A stretch of 64,000 nt of DNA from Candidatus Ancillula prorhinotermitis (lineage in GTDB: Bacteria; Actinomycetota; Actinomycetes; Actinomycetales; Bifidobacteriaceae), in the NCBI GenBank assembly GCA_031280795.1, contig JAITGF010000017.1, positions 19,613-83,612 of the forward strand, in the 5' to 3' direction. The translations under genes and the position numbers were made by a program. The notes beneath the pieces were generated by a model. That model was not told the origin of the DNA and ran no database searches. It saw only the letters and a program-made list of their open reading frames with translations. Of the stretch, positions 34,541-57,191 are shown one piece after another. Numbering within the stretch: the stretch's first letter is position 1; each line of letters starts with the position of its first letter.

Positions 34541-34621
34541 ACTCGGGGAGTAACTCCCCGTACCCCACCATTTTTCAAGTCGAAAACCACCGGAAACCGC
34601 TGGTATTTCTTTGTTGAAAAA
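34541..34621 (-). repeat. dispersed structured repeat, copy 2 (inverted)
   Basis: Reverse-complement copy of 282-362. It has the palindrome CGGGGAGT-A-ACTCCCCG, then TTTTTCAA (34571-34578)/TTGAAAAA (34614-34621) enclosing GAAA/TTTC and a 19-nt hairpin (34586-34604). Outer arms match copy 1 exactly; four of seven inner base pairs are changed on both sides so that pairing is kept. Confidence 0.8.
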
Positions 34622-34641
34622 AGATGTACACGAGGTTCCCT

Positions 34642-34670
34642 GCACGCGTAGCGAAAAGATGTGGTACAAT
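34642..34670 (+). promoter_or_regulatory. promoter of uxuB with GCACGCG box
   Basis: GCACGCG (34642-34648), 16 nt, TGG-TACAAT (34665-34670), then 6 nt to the ATG. The stretch GTAGCGAAAAGATGTGG is nearly identical to the one before the adhE -10. Confidence 0.65.
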
Positions 34671-34676
34671 AGAGAT

Positions 34677-36308
34677 ATGGTTAACATAAGTGATGATTAC
34701 AATGTGAATCGGGCAGCGTTTGAAGCGGCAGCGATTAAAGTTCCTTCTGGATATTTGATGCCGGAAGTTATTGAGAACACTTCCCAAAACCCCACTTGGG
34801 TTCACTTTGGCGGTGGTAACCTCTTCCGATGCATGCAAGCAGTGCACAGTCAAACTCTACTAGAAAAGGGCTTATCAAACACTGGAATCATCTTAGCTGA
34901 AACCTGGGACGACGGTCTTATCGAAGGTATTTACGACCAGTATCAAAATCGTACGTTAGATGTAATCTTAAAGAGTGACGGCACTTATGATTTGGAGCTA
35001 ATTGACTCAGTGACTGAAGCACATTACGTAAATGCGAATGATGAAAAAGGCAAAGCAGGCTTTATGCGCATGAAGGAGATTTTCCAAAACCCCTCCTTGC
35101 AGCTAGCGACTTTCACCGTCACTGAAAAAGGCTACAACATCAAAGACCTCCAAGGGCAGTTTTTCCCGCCGGTCGCGGAAGAAATTGAAGATGGACCCGA
35201 GAACCCCGTGTCATTAATGGGTGTCGTAACTGCACTAATGCTAGCCCGCTTTGAAGCTGGCGCACTGCCGATTGCTTTAGTGTCCACAGATAATTTTTCG
35301 CACAATGGTGATAAACTCAAAGCTTCCATAACGCAGATTGCTTCAGCGTGGCAGGAAAGGGGCTATGTCTCCGCAGGATTCATTGCCTACTTAAATGACG
35401 CGCAAAAGGTCGGATTCCCGTACTCCATGATTGATCGCATTACTCCTGCGCCTAGCGAAGATATTGCCAGTAAGTTAAGCGAGCAAAGCATCTCCCCAGT
35501 AGATATTTTGAAAACGGATAAATTTTCCACTTCTGCAGCCTTCGTCAATACTGAAGAAACCAATTATCTAGTCATTGAAGACAACTTCCCCGCTGGGCGC
35601 CCACCGCTAGAAGAAGCAGGGGTTATCTTCACATCGCGCGAAAAGGTAGACGAAGTTGAGCGCATGAAGGTATGCACCTGCCTGAACCCACTGCATACCG
35701 CTCTGGCAGTCACTGGCTGTTTGCTTGGGTTTACCAAGATCTGGCAAGGAGTCGGCGATGATGCACTTTTGAACTTGATTCGTAAAATCGGATACACTGA
35801 AGGCATGCCAGTGGTTACTGACCCAGGCATTATTTCGCCAATCGATTTCATAGATGAAGTGATTAAAAAAAGACTTCCTAACCCCTATATACCCGATACC
35901 CCACAGCGTATCGCTACCGACACTTCCCAAAAGCTACCGATTCGCTTCGGAGTGACTATTTCATTGTATAAGGACTCGTTACATCTTGACGTTAAGAATT
36001 TGCAGGCGATTTCATTTACTCTAGCAGCTTGGCTTCGTTATCTACTTGGTGTCGATGATGAGGGCAATGCTTTTGAGCGCTCACCAGACCCGATGTTTCC
36101 TGAGCTTGACCCAGTTTTTAGTACGCTCAAGTTGGGCGATAACGCTTCTAAACTTGAAGTTGTTAAGCCTTTCTTGAAAGATTCCAACATCTTTGGGGTG
36201 GATTTAGAAGCTGCTGGTCTCAGCGAAAAGGTGTTCAAATTCTTCGTCAGGATGGCAGAAAAGCCTGGTGCAGTTCGTGAAGTTTTAGAAGAGGTTGCAT
36301 TTTGCTAG
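34677..36308 (+). CDS. uxuB: D-fructuronate reductase / mannonate oxidoreductase (mannitol dehydrogenase family)
   Basis: 543-aa NAD-dependent long-chain polyol/uronate dehydrogenase. The Rossmann part opens with WVHFGGGNLFRCMQA; the active-site lysine region is ERMKVCTCLNPLHTALA. It would reduce D-fructuronate to D-mannonate. Length (~540 aa) and neighbours eda and kdgK match the Thermotoga-type UxuB cluster (uxuB-kdgK-eda) better than E. coli UxuB (486 aa). ATG 34677 is 6 nt after the -10 box (leaderless); the longer TTG frame includes the promoter. UxuA and UxaC are not in the window. First gene of the uxuB-eda-kdgK-argG-adk run. Confidence 0.86.
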   Translation: MVNISDDYNVNRAAFEAAAIKVPSGYLMPEVIENTSQNPTWVHFGGGNLFRCMQAVHSQTLLEKGLSNTGIILAETWDDGLIEGIYDQYQNRTLDVILKSDGTYDLELIDSVTEAHYVNANDEKGKAGFMRMKEIFQNPSLQLATFTVTEKGYNIKDLQGQFFPPVAEEIEDGPENPVSLMGVVTALMLARFEAGALPIALVSTDNFSHNGDKLKASITQIASAWQERGYVSAGFIAYLNDAQKVGFPYSMIDRITPAPSEDIASKLSEQSISPVDILKTDKFSTSAAFVNTEETNYLVIEDNFPAGRPPLEEAGVIFTSREKVDEVERMKVCTCLNPLHTALAVTGCLLGFTKIWQGVGDDALLNLIRKIGYTEGMPVVTDPGIISPIDFIDEVIKKRLPNPYIPDTPQRIATDTSQKLPIRFGVTISLYKDSLHLDVKNLQAISFTLAAWLRYLLGVDDEGNAFERSPDPMFPELDPVFSTLKLGDNASKLEVVKPFLKDSNIFGVDLEAAGLSEKVFKFFVRMAEKPGAVREVLEEVAFC

Positions 36309-36339: not shown

Positions 36340-36993
36340 ATGAAAAAAGTTGATATTTTGAAACGACTAGAAGCGGCAGGCGTTATCGCTGTTGTGCGTG
36401 GTAGTAATCGAGCGGACGTCCTTGGCGTAGTAGATGCACTAATCGATGGTGGTGTGGTTGGCATCGAACTTACCTTTACAGTTCCGCACGCTGACGAGAT
36501 TATCGAAACTATTTCCGAAAAATACGCCGACGATTCACGAGTGATTCTAGGTGCTGGTACAGTTTTGGAGCCGATTACTGCACGTATCGCTATTCTAGCG
36601 GGTGCCCAATATATAGTGTCACCGCATTTCGATGCTGAAATTGCGCAGATATGCAATCTATATCAGATCCCATATCTACCTGGTTGCGAAACGATTCGCG
36701 AAGTAACCCTAGCGCTTAAGTCGGGCGCTGATATCATCAAGCTATTCCCAGGCTCAGCTTTTGGCCCAAGCTACGTGAAGGCTTTGAAGGCTCCACTACC
36801 ACATGCGAACATCATGCCTACAGGAGGCGTTTCTTTGGAGAATATGGCCGACTGGTTTGCTGCTGGAGTGGTTACTGTAGGTGCTGGCGGCAATCTAACT
36901 ACACTTGGTCCAGATAAAGACTTCGAGGCAATCAGCGAAACTGCTTCGAAGTGGATTGCCAAACTAAATGAGATCAGAGGAGGTGCAAACTAA
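36340..36993 (+). CDS. eda: KDPG/KHG aldolase
   Basis: 217-aa class I aldolase cleaving 2-keto-3-deoxy-6-phosphogluconate to pyruvate and glyceraldehyde 3-phosphate. Catalytic Glu lies in IELTFTVP, the Schiff-base Lys in DIIKLFPGSAFGP, and the phosphate site in PTGGVSLENMADWFAAG. ATG 36340 follows GGAAAGGTGATG; the frame upstream is not needed. It is the last enzyme of the uronate route and is paired with kdgK. Confidence 0.94.
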   Translation: MKKVDILKRLEAAGVIAVVRGSNRADVLGVVDALIDGGVVGIELTFTVPHADEIIETISEKYADDSRVILGAGTVLEPITARIAILAGAQYIVSPHFDAEIAQICNLYQIPYLPGCETIREVTLALKSGADIIKLFPGSAFGPSYVKALKAPLPHANIMPTGGVSLENMADWFAAGVVTVGAGGNLTTLGPDKDFEAISETASKWIAKLNEIRGGAN

Positions 36994-36998
36994 ACTAG

Positions 36999-38090
36999 TT
37001 GTCAGATAGTATTCTAAGTGGTCAGGGTAAGCGTATGTTGACCATTGGTGAGCCTATGGCTGTTTTTGCCTCAGGTGATACTGATGAACACTTAAAAGAT
37101 GTCCGTAACTGGAGCATGCACACTGCCGGAGCTGAGCTTAACGTTGCCATCGGGGTGGCGAGATTGGGTCTAGAATCTGAATACATCTGCCAAGTTGGAG
37201 ATGATCCCTTTGGACACTTCCTGCTAGAGGAAACTCAAAAGCTCGGGGTTGGAACTGACTACTTCAAAATCTCAAACGAGTACCCCACAGGTATCTACTT
37301 CAAGCAACGGGTTTCAAAAGGAGATCCAGAAGTGTTTTACCGCCGTCAAGGCTCAGCGGCCAGTCATTTTGATGGTGAAATACTAAATCAAGTTGATTTT
37401 TCCAAGTACAAAATTGCACACCTTTCGGGCATCTTCCCAGCACTTTCTGACACTTCTAACCAGGTGTTTGGTGACCTCATAAATAGACTTCGCACCCAAG
37501 GTGTTTTCATAACTTTCGACCCCAACATCCGCCTGCCACTTTGGAGTGATAGGCAGAAAATGATACAAGTATTGAATGAGCATGCGGCTAAGGCAGATCT
37601 TGTACTCCCAGGTGTAAATGAAGGCGAAATTCTGTTTGGCACGCGCGATCCTGAGGAAATTGTTTTAGAGTACTTCAAGAATTCCACAACAACACGATAC
37701 GTTTTGGTCAAGCTTGGGGAAAAGGGTGCACTACTTGGTGAGCGCTCGACTGTCAATACCACCCCGCGTGAGGAGCAGGATGAAGAACGGGCAAAAAGGC
37801 AGACAGAAGAGAAGAATAGCCAGGACAGTGAAGTCGGTTTAGTCAGCCACAATGATATAAAATTCACGCAGATACCAGGTTTTAGGGTCGACCACGTCGT
37901 CGACACTGTCGGTGCTGGGGATGGTTTTGCAGTCGGGCTCATTACCGGATTGATGGACGGTCTTAGCATCGAGGAGTCTGCTAAGAGGGCTACTGCGATT
38001 GGAGCACTGGCAGTGCAAGTAGCTGGCGATAATGAGGGATACCCAACGCGCGAAGAATTAGAAAGATTCATGAGAGGAGATACAAAATAG
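36999..38090 (+). CDS. kdgK: 2-keto-3-deoxygluconate kinase (PfkB family)
   Basis: 363-aa ribokinase-like enzyme making KDPG for Eda. Family marks: [11 protein letters not shown] at the start, [11 protein letters not shown], the lid region, and the catalytic loop [14 protein letters not shown] charged insertion of ~35 residues (about 250-285, [15 protein letters not shown]) is not typical. Start is TTG 36999, 14 nt behind GAGGAGG; ATG 37035, which directly opens the conserved MLTIGE, is equally possible. Its stop TAG overlaps the apparent ATA start of argG. Confidence 0.9.
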
Positions 38091-39331
38091 TACGTTCAGT
38101 AGCATTAGCATATTCAGGTGGACTTGACACTTCGGTAGCGATTGAGTGGATAAAGGAAGCGACTGGTGCAGACGTTTTTGCAGTAGCAGTAGATGTAGGT
38201 CAGCAAGGTGAGGATCTAGAAACGATTCGTGAGCGAGCGATTGCTTGTGGGGCTAAGGAAGCCTATATTGCGGATGCTAGAGACGAGTTCGCAAAAGAAT
38301 ATTGTTTCCAAAACATCAAGGCCAACGGTATGTACGAAGGTGAGTACCCACTAGTTTCCGCACTCTCTAGGCCAGTAATTACGAAGCATCTGGTAAAAGC
38401 TGCTAAGGAATTCGGGTGCGACACATTAGCTCATGGGTGCACGGGCAAAGGTAATGACCAAGTGCGCTTTGAGGTCTCTATCCAATCGCTAGCGCCGGAT
38501 CTAGAATGCCTTTCACCGATTCGCGACCTTGCCATGACGCGCGACAAGGAAATCGCCTTTGCAAAGCAGAAGAATTTGCCCATCACCATTAAAGAGGAGA
38601 AAAACCCCTTTTCCATCGACCAGAATGTGTGGGGGAGAGCCATTGAAGCAGGTTTCTTAGAAGACATCTGGAATGCGCCTGATCATCCAGATATTTATAC
38701 TTACACCCAAGATGTTGATTCAAACAAACCGGCTGAAGAAGTCGTGATTAGCTTTGAAAAGGGCGAGCCGGTAGCGTTAAATGGAGTTGCGCTTTCACCA
38801 CTCGCACTTATCGAACAGATGAACGCTCTGGCAGGTGCACATGGCATCGGGCGTATCGACATCGTTGAATCACGCTTGGTAGGGATTAAATCACGCGAGA
38901 TATACGAAGCTCCGGGGGCGATTGCACTCATTACAGCGCATCGTGAGCTAGAGCGAGTAGTGCTTGAACGCGAGCAAATGCGTTTCAAAAAGCAAGTTGA
39001 GGCGCGCTGGGCAGATTTAGTATACGATGGTCGTTGGTACTCGCCATTAAAGCAATCGCTGGATGCGTTCATTAATGATACCCAGGAATATGTAACCGGC
39101 GACGTGAGAATGCGTTTGCAAGCAGGTAAAGCCACTCCGGTTGGTAGGCGCTCTGATTCTGGGCTTTACGACTACAATTTGGCTACTTACGAAGCTGGCG
39201 ACCAATTCGATCAGCATTCGAGCAAAGGTTTTATTCAAATTTACGGTCTACAGGATAAGCTTTCCGCTGCCAGAGCTCAACGTGTGACAGCTGGTAATAC
39301 TAACACAAAAGATAAGGAGAGTAATGGTTAA
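38087..39331 (+). CDS. argG: argininosuccinate synthase with ATA start codon
   Basis: 414 aa. The enzyme joins citrulline and aspartate with ATP in arginine synthesis. The N-terminal ATP loop [11 protein letters not shown] is complete, followed by [24 protein letters not shown] and [13 protein letters not shown]. The frame has no ATG, GTG, TTG or CTG between its upstream TGA and the ATP loop; the first ATG (38330) is 80 residues inside the protein. ATA 38087-38089 lies 7 nt behind GGAG (GAGGAGA, 38074-38080) and overlaps the kdgK stop (ATAG), a perfect position for a coupled start. Its 3' end overlaps adk by 8 bp. Confidence 0.9.
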
Positions 39332-39899
39332 GAGATTATTGATTATGGGGCCCCAAGGGGTTGGAAAAGGTACTCAAGCAGCTGTCTTGGGCGAGCATTT
39401 TGGCATTCAGCCCATTTCGACAGGGGATATATTCCGCTATAACATCAAGAATGCGACCGAATTAGGCGAGAAGGTTAAAGCCATCATTGATCGAGGTGAG
39501 CTAGTGTCTGATGAGTTAACTGGTGAGCTTGTACGCGACGCTCTAAGCTTAAAGAATTCCAATCAAGAAGGCTTTATCTTAGATGGTTACCCGCGCAATC
39601 ATAACCAAGTTGTTGATTTGGATGCAACGCTTTCAGAGCTAGGCATAACCTTAGATGCAGTGGTTACTCTGCAAGCCGACCGAGATGTTTTACTTGAGCG
39701 TATGCTTAAGCGTGCACAAATTGAAGGGCGTGCAGACGACACTGAAGAAGCCATTAAAAAGCGCCTAGAGATATACGAGCTAGAAACGGCGCCATTGGTA
39801 AACGAATATCGCTCACGTGGTATCCTTGTACCAGTTGATGGCACTCCACCTATTGAAGATGTCACTAATGCAATCATAACTGCTATCAAAGAGCTTTAA
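39324..39899 (+). CDS. adk: adenylate kinase
   Basis: 191-aa nucleotide kinase (AMP + ATP = 2 ADP), short-lid actinobacterial size. P-loop [13 protein letters not shown] (Gln instead of the usual Pro), AMP-binding [10 protein letters not shown] and [11 protein letters not shown], and the lid region [20 protein letters not shown] without the zinc ribbon. The ATG overlaps the end of argG, so it is translated from the uronate-argG transcript as well. Adk is usually with secY or map; this coupling is uncommon. The stop codon is part of the repeat 39894-39937. Confidence 0.93.
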
Positions 39900-53948: not shown

Positions 53949-55878
53949 AAACGACTCGATTAAAAAGTATAACCCCACATTTCTAGCAGTCGATTTTGAA
54001 AGTGTTATCAGTGTCGGAAACGGTGATTTTGCCTTCAATTGTGACGCTACGGGCTTCCAAACACTTTTTGATGAATATCTCAAGCATAATAACCCTTTAA
54101 CGACTATGTCGAATTTTCACTGGGGAAGCTATGGTGGCAATGATCGATATCAACTAGGTAATTTGACGATGGATGAGTTTGTGCGCGCCGACGGGAAAGT
54201 GGTTCGATACCCACAGAATGCTGTGCCCAAACGCTTCAAGGCTGAAGATTATTGCGGAGCCACACCGATAAAGCCTGCGGAACCCATCCTTAAAGATGAA
54301 GCATCAATTATACATAATTCTGAAAGATATGAATGGCTACGAAAGGATCCGCACCGAGCAAATATGGGTATCCTTCAGCTTGAAGTGGGTGGTCGTGTCC
54401 CAAGTGCTAGCGAAATCGAGAGCATTCACGCTGAGCTCAATCTGCTTTCTGGGGTCTTTAGGTCTCGCTACAAAATCGATGGTATTCAGTTTGAGGTTAT
54501 GGTGACTTGCCAAGATAACACATCAAAAGCGCAGTTCAAAGTTATATCCACAGCCTTTCACGCAAGGAAAGCCAAGTTGAAGCTACTGCGTGCGCCAGCA
54601 AGCCACACTATAGCTGGGGCTGATTTCCAAAACGCTACAGTCAGCTATTTAGATGTCGATGCTATTTCGGGGGGAAGCGCTGGTGATAGGCTAGAGTTTG
54701 AAGTGGATTTCAAAGGTGGTGCTTTTAGTGAATGCACATTCAAAGGTGAGAACCCCTATGTCCAAAACTTCTGGAAAAACGTTGAGGTGATTCCACTTGG
54801 TGACGTCTCCTATTCTAGAGAAGATTTGCAAGAGCTTGAGCGCCGTGAAGTCCTATCTCTCTACAATCTTGCGATTCATTCCTCAGGGTCAATTCCACCA
54901 CAGGAGACAGGCCTGATGTGTAACTCTTGGTATGGTAAGTTTCATCTTGAGATGCATCTTTGGCATAGCGCTTGGGCTCCGTTATATGGTGTTCCGGAGT
55001 TGATAGAAAAATCCTTTGACTGGTACTTAGAAATCCTACCCCAGGCACGCGAAAATGCGATGCGAAATGGTTTTAGTGGATGTCGTTGGCCTAAGATGGT
55101 GGGGCCAAAAGGGGTTGACTCACCATCGATCATTGCTCCGCTTTTGTGCTGGCAACAGTCACACATTATCTTTTTGCTCCATCTCGTTTACGGGAAAAGC
55201 CTACCTAAAAAATACCGCGTTTTAGTTAAGGAAACTGCTGATTTCATGTGCGATTTTCTTGTGTATAATGCAAAAGAAGATGTTTACGATATGATTGGAC
55301 CAGTGATACCCGCCCAGGAAGAGTTTGACCCCATGACAGTCTTAAACCCCACCTTCGAAATGGTGTATTGGAAATACTGCTTACAGCTGGCTCTAGGCAT
55401 GCTAGGAGAAAATGATTCATCAAGGCAAGATAGTTTTGCACTCTGGCAAGAAGTTCATGAAAAAATCGCTGTGCCAAAGCCTGTTTCTAGTCTTTTTCCG
55501 AGCCACCAAAATGCACCCGACACCTTCCCGAACTTCATGAAAGACCACCCCATGCAGTTAGCTATTCTAGGTCTATTTGAAAGTGCTGATATGCAAACTA
55601 TAGAAAACAAAGCGGCGCTCAAGAGTACTTTGGAGCGAGTTCTAGAAGATTGGGATGAAGCTAGTATGTGGGGGTGGGATTATGGATATATGGCAATGCT
55701 TGCGCATGCATTGGATGACGATGACTTGGCTGTCCAAATACTGCTAAAGCCTTCACCGAAGAACTACTACGCTGCTAATGGACATAATTTTCAGCTAGGT
55801 AGAAGCGATTTACCAAGCTACTTACCAGGTAACGGAGCGCTACTCTGGGCAATACACACGATATGGAAAGGAAAATGA
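53932..55878 (+). CDS. predicted six-hairpin glycosidase-like protein
   Basis: 648 aa without a signal peptide. The N-terminal ~280 residues are beta-rich; from about 320 the sequence looks like an (alpha/alpha)6 barrel with LMCNSWYGKFHLEMHLWH, GCRWPKM and NPTFEMVYWKY segments. This layout resembles GH65/GH78/GH95-type intracellular glycosidases, but I cannot name the family. WHFWH-like Trp/His clusters and Glu in PAQEEFDP may be catalytic. Adjacent to a GH28 gene, so it may finish degradation of a pectin- or rhamnose-containing oligosaccharide. That role is inference. Confidence 0.68.
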   Translation: MIHLPKNDSIKKYNPTFLAVDFESVISVGNGDFAFNCDATGFQTLFDEYLKHNNPLTTMSNFHWGSYGGNDRYQLGNLTMDEFVRADGKVVRYPQNAVPKRFKAEDYCGATPIKPAEPILKDEASIIHNSERYEWLRKDPHRANMGILQLEVGGRVPSASEIESIHAELNLLSGVFRSRYKIDGIQFEVMVTCQDNTSKAQFKVISTAFHARKAKLKLLRAPASHTIAGADFQNATVSYLDVDAISGGSAGDRLEFEVDFKGGAFSECTFKGENPYVQNFWKNVEVIPLGDVSYSREDLQELERREVLSLYNLAIHSSGSIPPQETGLMCNSWYGKFHLEMHLWHSAWAPLYGVPELIEKSFDWYLEILPQARENAMRNGFSGCRWPKMVGPKGVDSPSIIAPLLCWQQSHIIFLLHLVYGKSLPKKYRVLVKETADFMCDFLVYNAKEDVYDMIGPVIPAQEEFDPMTVLNPTFEMVYWKYCLQLALGMLGENDSSRQDSFALWQEVHEKIAVPKPVSSLFPSHQNAPDTFPNFMKDHPMQLAILGLFESADMQTIENKAALKSTLERVLEDWDEASMWGWDYGYMAMLAHALDDDDLAVQILLKPSPKNYYAANGHNFQLGRSDLPSYLPGNGALLWAIHTIWKGK

Positions 55879-57191
55879 TGAATATACAAGATGCTATAAA
55901 TAACGTAAAAGAAAACGGTGGTGGGGAGGTTATAATACCGGCTGGAGAGCATATGACCGGACCTTTGGAGCTCTGCTCAAACCTAATCTTAACCCTAGAA
56001 GATGGTGCGCACATCAAATTTGACACCGGCCCAAATGCTTACCCGCCAGTTTGGACGCGCTGGGAAGGTATTGAGTGTTGGGCGATGCATCCGCTCGTCT
56101 GGGGTAACGAAGTGGCAAATGTCATCATCCGCGGAAAAGGAATGCCATGGAAGAGTGGTGATGACCAGAAGATTCGAGATGACGCACGCGGTATCATAGA
56201 TGGCCAAGGAGATGCTTGGTGGGAGAAGTTTAGAGTCATCGAGAAGATTGAGGATCGACACAGCCCCAAAATGGACTACGAATTGCGACTAGCTGAGCTG
56301 AATCCTGATTACAAAACTCGCCCAGGAGGTGGTGCACGCCCTGATACGCAGTTTTTGCGGCCACCACTTATGCAATTCTTCAAGTCTAAGAACATCACCA
56401 TCCAAGGTTTCACTTTGCAAAACTCTCCCTTCTGGACATTCCACACCGTATATTCGGAAGATATAAAAATACTAGACATGAAAATACTTAACCCCGAAGA
56501 TGCCATCAATACGGATGCAATTGATATTGATTCAAGCTCTAACGTCACTATAGAAAATTCATTGCTCGATATCGGTGATGACGCTGTAACGCTTAAGTCA
56601 GGGTCTGGTGAGCAAGGCCTAAAGATTGGCATCCCCACCCAAGATGTAAGAGTTAGCAATTGTAAAATCTTTGCCAGCCACGGAGGTATTGCTATCGGCT
56701 CGGAAACTGCTGGTGGCATTGCCAATGTTGATGTGAACTCTTGCGAGTTTGAAGGCACTCAGCGCGCAATCCGCTTGAAAAGCCGCCGCACAAGGGGAGG
56801 GGTGATTGAAAACATCACAATTTCTAACGCAAAAATGGATAAGTGTTGGAGTGCGATTGTACTTAGCCAATATTTTTACCCTGGCGTTTTGCCGTTTGAA
56901 GAAGATTTCATCATGTCAACTTCAGCGCAGGAACTATCTGAAACAACGCCTAGAATCAAGAATGTCGTAATCGAGAATGTAACGGCAACCAATTTGCGCT
57001 CATCAGCTGCTTTTATCGTTGGACTACCTGAAGCACCGATAGAAAACGTTTCAGTGAAAAATTTCCAATGGTCACTGGCAGATAAGGAAGAGCTAATGGA
57101 GACATGCAATTCAGAGGTGACAAATGGTCTCTTTCATGACGATGATCGTGGCATAAAAATTATCAATGCCATCAATGTCAGCGTTGAGTAA
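55878..57191 (+). CDS. GH28 family polygalacturonase-like glycosidase
   Basis: 437 aa, right-handed beta-helix. All four GH28 motifs occur in order: NTDAIDIDS (NTD), DIGDDAVTLKSG (DD), SHGGIAIGSE (HG) and IRLKSRR (RLK). These give the three catalytic Asp and the His and Lys of the site. No signal peptide, so it probably acts in the cytoplasm on imported oligogalacturonides. I chose ATG 55878 with GAAAGGA 5 nt away; ATG 55875 is possible. It overlaps the upstream stop, and together they form a sugar-acid catabolic pair. Confidence 0.88.
   Translation: MNIQDAINNVKENGGGEVIIPAGEHMTGPLELCSNLILTLEDGAHIKFDTGPNAYPPVWTRWEGIECWAMHPLVWGNEVANVIIRGKGMPWKSGDDQKIRDDARGIIDGQGDAWWEKFRVIEKIEDRHSPKMDYELRLAELNPDYKTRPGGGARPDTQFLRPPLMQFFKSKNITIQGFTLQNSPFWTFHTVYSEDIKILDMKILNPEDAINTDAIDIDSSSNVTIENSLLDIGDDAVTLKSGSGEQGLKIGIPTQDVRVSNCKIFASHGGIAIGSETAGGIANVDVNSCEFEGTQRAIRLKSRRTRGGVIENITISNAKMDKCWSAIVLSQYFYPGVLPFEEDFIMSTSAQELSETTPRIKNVVIENVTATNLRSSAAFIVGLPEAPIENVSVKNFQWSLADKEELMETCNSEVTNGLFHDDDRGIKIINAINVSVE

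Follow-up and report, generated by a model that had tools for sequence, protein, structure and literature searches.

A conserved argG frame without a usual start codon

How might argG be translated when its frame offers none of the usual start codons ahead of the ATP-binding loop of the enzyme? The question is raised by a 64,000-nt stretch of DNA from Candidatus Ancillula prorhinotermitis, which in its entirety we call the window; Candidatus Ancillula are endosymbionts of termite-gut flagellates. All features of the argG locus described here lie on the forward strand. argG, encoding argininosuccinate synthase, spans positions 38087–39331 (414 aa if read from an ATA start). It follows a kdgK-like sugar kinase gene of the PfkB family (37035–38090, 351 aa), whose NCBIfam matches all fall under the curated cut-offs and for which the public protein P0121 begins at ATG 37035, and it precedes the adenylate kinase gene adk (39324–39899; window protein P0241), the start of which overlaps the argG end by 8 nt. 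Upstream and in the same direction lies an eda-like gene for KDPG aldolase (36340–36993; NF005119, 298 bits against a cut-off of 238), which, together with the GlcNAc phosphotransferase, nagB and nagA-like (under cut-off) genes of the window, fits the Ancillula metabolism outlined in PMC11707648. The window also holds a fructuronate reductase/arabinitol dehydrogenase-like ORF 5' of the aldolase gene (34554–36308; matches listed under the curated cut-offs) and, in a relative of intracellular symbionts, a polygalacturonase-like glycoside hydrolase gene (55833–57191; NF051860, 223 bits, cut-off 600).

After the in-frame stop TGA 38033, the argG frame reads GGG ATA CCC AAC GCG CGA AGA ATT AGA AAG ATT CAT GAG AGG AGA TAC AAA ATA(38087) GTA CGT TCA GTA GCA TTA GCA TAT TCA GGT GGA. 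From 38036 to 38329 it contains no ATG, GTG, TTG or CTG; the earliest canonical codons are ATG 38330 (38330–38332), CTG 38390, GTG 38462 and TTG 38576, the first of them already within the gene and past the codons for the ATP loop SGGLDTS (38114–38134). The initial annotation had stated that no such codon exists between the upstream TGA and the loop, and this is borne out. Four near-cognate AUN codons occupy the stretch where the start must lie, namely ATA 38039, ATT 38057, ATT 38066 and ATA 38087, and by eye only the last has a Shine-Dalgarno site at the usual distance. This ATA (38087–38089) follows an AGGAG site (38075–38079) with a gap of 7 nt after its GGAG (38076–38079), overlaps the kdgK stop TAG (38088–38090) as ATAG, and in translation stands 8 residues ahead of SGGLDTS. 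Spacing, overlap and distance to the loop are thus all as first described.

By our own rough estimate, a run of ~19 codons devoid of NTG is not rare per se (about 1 in 3), and GGAG-N7-ATA was found four times on the two strands of the window versus 5.8 expected, so that the motif by itself proves nothing. The candidate ATA start stands out from a chance gap in NTG codons because it coincides with the beginning of a conserved protein: in the ATA frame, the match to the NCBIfam argG model sets in at residue 4, which is 234 nt 5' of the first canonical start. The 12-residue beginning of a public ArgG protein (P0001) places M at the ATA codon, indicating that some annotation already reads ATA as M. 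Predicted RNA structure at the argG start was not above that of shuffled sequences (z 0.43), and a 20-base pattern spanning the kdgK/argG junction returned 0 matches in viral_contigs.

The homologous codon in relatives

Among named genomes, those of Candidatus Ancillula carry the argG loci most similar to that of the window (L001, L002 and L003, with 83%, 72% and 72% protein identity, respectively); L012, the argG of genome G007, is 75% identical, and the genus of L001 comprises four genomes (G001, G002, G003 and G007). When the sequences are anchored on AYSGG, ATA 38087 falls 7 codons before the A, exactly like the GTG of L001, L002 and L003 and the ATG of L012. Canonical starts at the homologous position in 4/4 genomes indicate that ATA 38087 was the right codon to pick. 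The accompanying suggestion that close relatives would show ATG at this place held as far as a canonical codon is concerned, with ATG in one of them and GTG in three.

More broadly, a canonical start lies 5' of the ATP loop in 38/38 argG loci (30 distinct contexts), three of which stem from distant bacteria of other phyla or orders (L005–L007). The family-wide search found argG in 80 genomes, with loci taken from 30; for this and for the corresponding kdgK and infC searches the family was taken as Bifidobacteriaceae, following PMC11707648. A non-canonical argG start common to relatives was found in 0/38 loci. The nearest relative is represented by its protein sequence (P0008, 89% identical), which is called from an internal ATG and at first suggested that another argG lacks its start; it was dropped, its source contig being doubtful. 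Both P0008 and the adk protein P0310 are listed with a 2,549-base contig and called from internal starts, and the P0310 sequence is contained in the full-length adk protein P0242, so that the contig may be cut short or contain errors and P0008 is no evidence on starts.

The solitary ATA could also reflect a single-base consensus or assembly error, in which case either 38087 or 38090 would be a canonical codon in the living organism. Consistent with such an error, ATA and the following GTA are each one base off a canonical start, all 38 loci have a canonical start and no relative examined has ATA, and the exact window ArgG protein is listed from one contig only. On the other hand, no two neighbouring ORFs match parts of one family among 40 window ORFs (32 with a match), an unsystematic survey that sets a weak bound on substitution errors. 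We consider an error somewhat unlikely; it is the main rival to a working AUA start.

The order kdgK-argG-adk (37035–39899) is itself unlike that of relatives, since argG precedes argH in G002, G003 and G007. In L001, argG is preceded by a frame that we take to resemble bioY.

Start regions across the window

The interval from the upstream stop to the first canonical start amounts to 98 codons in argG, the largest among the 48 main window ORFs. Ten other ORFs, all of which were scanned, have intervals of at least 17 codons; eight of these yielded a family match (E ≤ 1e-15), and in none of the eight does the best match begin 5' of the first canonical start. For the XTP pyrophosphatase ORF, one lower-scoring model begins 3 codons before it. 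Thirty further window ORFs were scanned, 24 of them with a match at E ≤ 1e-50.

Shine-Dalgarno-like matches precede 19/46 other window ORFs at spacings of 4 to 11 nt (measured to the GGAG end), two of them at 11 nt. AGGAG-type sites occur in five of the 46, with spacings of 4, 6, 6, 6 and 7 nt, a range into which the 7 nt to the ATA fits. These figures derive from a rough scan, in which 27/46 ORFs had no site and several sites preceded doubtful internal codons.

A probable displaced start in a sister species

A kdgK protein from a sister species (P0122; 65% identical, 265,759-base contig) has the C-terminus ...EGYPTRPELDQFMKGERAVCVQ. Aligned gaplessly to the window DNA, it continues for 4 residues beyond the last lysine of the window protein and ends at the TAG of window position 38100, inside argG. 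Where the window has GTA 38090, the cysteine codon of P0122 requires an NTG in the argG frame; argG of this species most likely starts one codon later than the ATA position, at a canonical codon or CTG. The adk protein P0242 (82% identical) is also listed with the 265,759-base contig, which supports the order kdgK-argG-adk; no argG is listed with this contig among the 120 matches listed, and it may be among the three members behind P0001. A kdgK search of 189 family genomes (E ≤ 1e-30) gave a match in 50, the best of them only 47% identical (G003), so none of these genomes is that of the close relative from which P0122 comes. The alignment suggests that the argG start position moved within a small lineage, and an ancestral start at either of the two codons could underlie the window sequence. 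Given the NTG implied one codon later in the sister species, the ATA position may not be that of the immediate ancestor. The same implied NTG at 38090 is in line with a consensus error.

These observations also bear on initiation at some other non-canonical codon, above all GTA 38090 (38090–38092), which aligns with the NTG proposed for the P0122 species. A precedent is the GTC start of Streptomyces sigR (GTC/GTT; PMC5472188), and the 10-nt spacing of the GTA is within the 4 to 11 nt of the 19 window ORFs with a Shine-Dalgarno-like match. It nevertheless exceeds the 4–7 nt of the five AGGAG-type genes, and the start in 4/4 genus genomes is at the ATA position. By eye, neither ATT 38057 nor ATT 38066 has a suitably spaced Shine-Dalgarno site. 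We consider a start at any of these codons very unlikely.

The junction might alternatively dispense with a separate argG start, if a −1 slip on AAAA (38084–38087) produced a KdgK-ArgG fusion. This tetranucleotide abuts the kdgK TAG on its 5' side, and a ribosome shifted to the −1 frame would read on into argG, but a full slippery heptamer is absent, and in known −1 sites the GGAG is farther off than here. Furthermore, three genomes with argG (G001, G002 and G007) gave no kdgK match at E ≤ 1e-30, and G003 carries the two genes on separate contigs. We regard a fusion as extremely improbable.

Integrity of argG

The window ArgG is full-length and scores above the curated cut-offs of NF001770 (566 bits, cut-off 334) and TIGR00032 (491 bits, cut-off 268). 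Its ATP loop SGGLDTS is present and the frame is intact over 414 codons. The protein departs at 1/168 invariant columns (residue 210), and the same change occurs in its nearest relative, P0008; these columns were defined on 14 relatives hand-chosen from 120 listed proteins, to which P0008 was added. With P0002 as the outgroup, the window ArgG accumulated 6 lineage changes versus 14 in P0008, a comparison that covers the remainder of ArgG, as P0008 is without the first 81 residues. Signs of a pseudogene, that is, a broken frame or relaxed constraint, were not seen in argG, bearing in mind that a very recent loss would leave none. Judged by these comparisons, the window argG is intact and under constraint.

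A pseudogene could still have arisen by loss of the start codon in an eroding endosymbiont genome, with argG yielding no useful protein and decay not yet begun. Termite-associated Bifidobacteriaceae are reported to be eroding, with 26 ± 19 pseudogenes per Ancillula genome (PMC11707648), and AUA can be a mutant allele, as ATG>ATA is described for bd0108 of Bdellovibrio (PMC3818213). Moreover, G001, which has the most similar argG among the genomes reached and may be incomplete, has no argH above the family cut-off. Against this explanation, the 414-codon ORF and the ATP loop are intact, the Shine-Dalgarno site has been kept, and there is no acceleration relative to P0008; the few changes in ArgG argue against function having been lost long ago, whereas a very recent loss would not show in them. 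Ancillula are also reported to have kept most amino acid pathways (PMC11707648). An early pseudogene is unlikely, and ranks next after a consensus error among the rivals of a working AUA start.

Unlike in G001, argH adjoins argG in G002, G003 and G007.

Candidate near-cognate starts at infC

The infC gene is the standard case for near-cognate start use. Its start region was readable in 28/34 loci, 24 of them outside the Ancillula genus. GGAG followed by an in-frame ATC or ATT, a candidate start, was found in all 24 of the latter, some of which also have canonical codons farther to the 5' side. Within the genus, a canonical start is absent in 2/4 genomes (G003 and G007): the G007 locus (L064) has an ATT candidate, and that of G003 (L061) has no ATG, GTG or TTG before the conserved N-terminus. 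G001 (L062) and G002 (L063) have TTG, in G002 right behind AAGGAG, and the arrangement AAGGAG-6 nt-ACG is common to G003 and G002. The genus may have replaced the start codon customary for IF3, perhaps by ACG. Near-cognate starts seem to be usable in the family, as these infC candidates suggest.

Weak initiation at AUA as the preferred reading

With a probability of slightly under one half (~0.48), we favor the reading that the canonical start of argG disappeared recently and that the gene is now translated at a reduced level from AUA, aided by the Shine-Dalgarno site and by termination of kdgK translation. The loss would have left ATA as the codon at the genus start position. AUA differs from AUG in the third base only; the ribosome would initiate there at a lower rate, pairing with fMet-tRNA being imperfect. 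The AGGAG site and ribosomes ending at the overlapping kdgK UAG could partly offset this weakness, and IF3 discrimination would hold ArgG output low.

Published figures set the scale of such an effect. ATA reached up to 1% of ATG according to Hecht et al. 2017, as cited in PMC12864459, and weak third-base pairs, other than AUA with the CAU anticodon, are reported to give very little product in vitro (PMC10158994). The coupled start through ATAG put forward by the initial annotation is plausible but weakly backed: an AUAA junction without a Shine-Dalgarno site is reported to be inactive in E. coli, where a UAAua junction yielded 0.4% of upstream reading versus 24.7% for UAAUG (PMC9955659). Unlike that inactive junction, the window does have a Shine-Dalgarno site, which makes low-level AUA initiation the most economical reading. 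Barring a sequencing error at the ATA, weak translation of argG probably continues. As to the proposal that argG starts with ATA, the absence of a usual start and the choice of ATA 38087 as the best candidate (homologous position in 4/4 genomes, Shine-Dalgarno spacing, lack of decay) hold up, while initiation at the AUA itself stays a prediction.

A bolder version of AUA initiation assumes that the AUA is real and under selection. The weak start would then throttle argG and tie its use to ribosomes finishing kdgK, so that arginine synthesis would follow hexuronate catabolism and the IF3 level in a protist endosymbiont, with sister species swapping start codons at the overlap. This we deem distinctly unlikely.

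If the AUA start is real, a biosynthetic gene of an endosymbiont joins the few natural AUA starts, and genome erosion may proceed via start-codon downgrading ahead of visible pseudogene formation. Such a start would further point to a class of genes truncated by callers that accept only ATG, GTG and TTG; here, the truncation removes 81 codons and the ATP loop is lost.

Comparison with known systems

AUA starts are already known, and argG here, read in this way, is a further case. Among the matches listed, judged on titles and the beginnings of abstracts, no report of an AUA-started argG was found, and argG combined with 'non-canonical start codon' gave none. A reconstruction of 61,358 AUG starts reports switches to GUG, UUG, CUG and AUU, with none to AUA among those it describes (PMC5622118).

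The nearest parallels are infC, ccpN and citZ of S. aureus, for which ribosome profiling is reported to have revealed AUA starts (PMC13009471). As in the window, AUA replaces a canonical start in these genes, with extended Shine-Dalgarno sites at infC and ccpN, and output is reduced for ccpN and citZ: their AUA reporters reached ~10% of AUG in poor medium, and in rich medium that of ccpN gave as much as 30% (PMC13009471). Whereas the S. aureus starts were mapped by profiling and two of them backed by reporters, the window start is predicted from sequence. The non-canonical start of ccpN is kept as far as B. subtilis and that of citZ within one strain lineage, in contrast to the window ATA, which is shared by no relative examined.

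The ATG>ATA allele of E. coli rpoS, which lowers RpoS up to 5-fold (PMC12864459), resembles the window in being a single transition in the start of an otherwise intact gene, that is, a knock-down allele. It arose in laboratory culture from a known parent, whereas the ancestor of the window argG has to be deduced from other species. sigR of Streptomyces likewise belongs to an actinobacterium and has a non-canonical start, which had been misplaced in annotation (PMC5472188), but the codon differs (GTC), is kept in 32/34 species and is backed by Edman sequencing and stop-codon tests. Finally, argG of the Candidatus Ancillula genus itself (L001, L002, L003 and L012) shares with the window a 72–83% identical protein and the same aligned start position, and differs in having GTG or ATG there and no neighbouring kdgK, where the window has ATA overlapping the kdgK stop.
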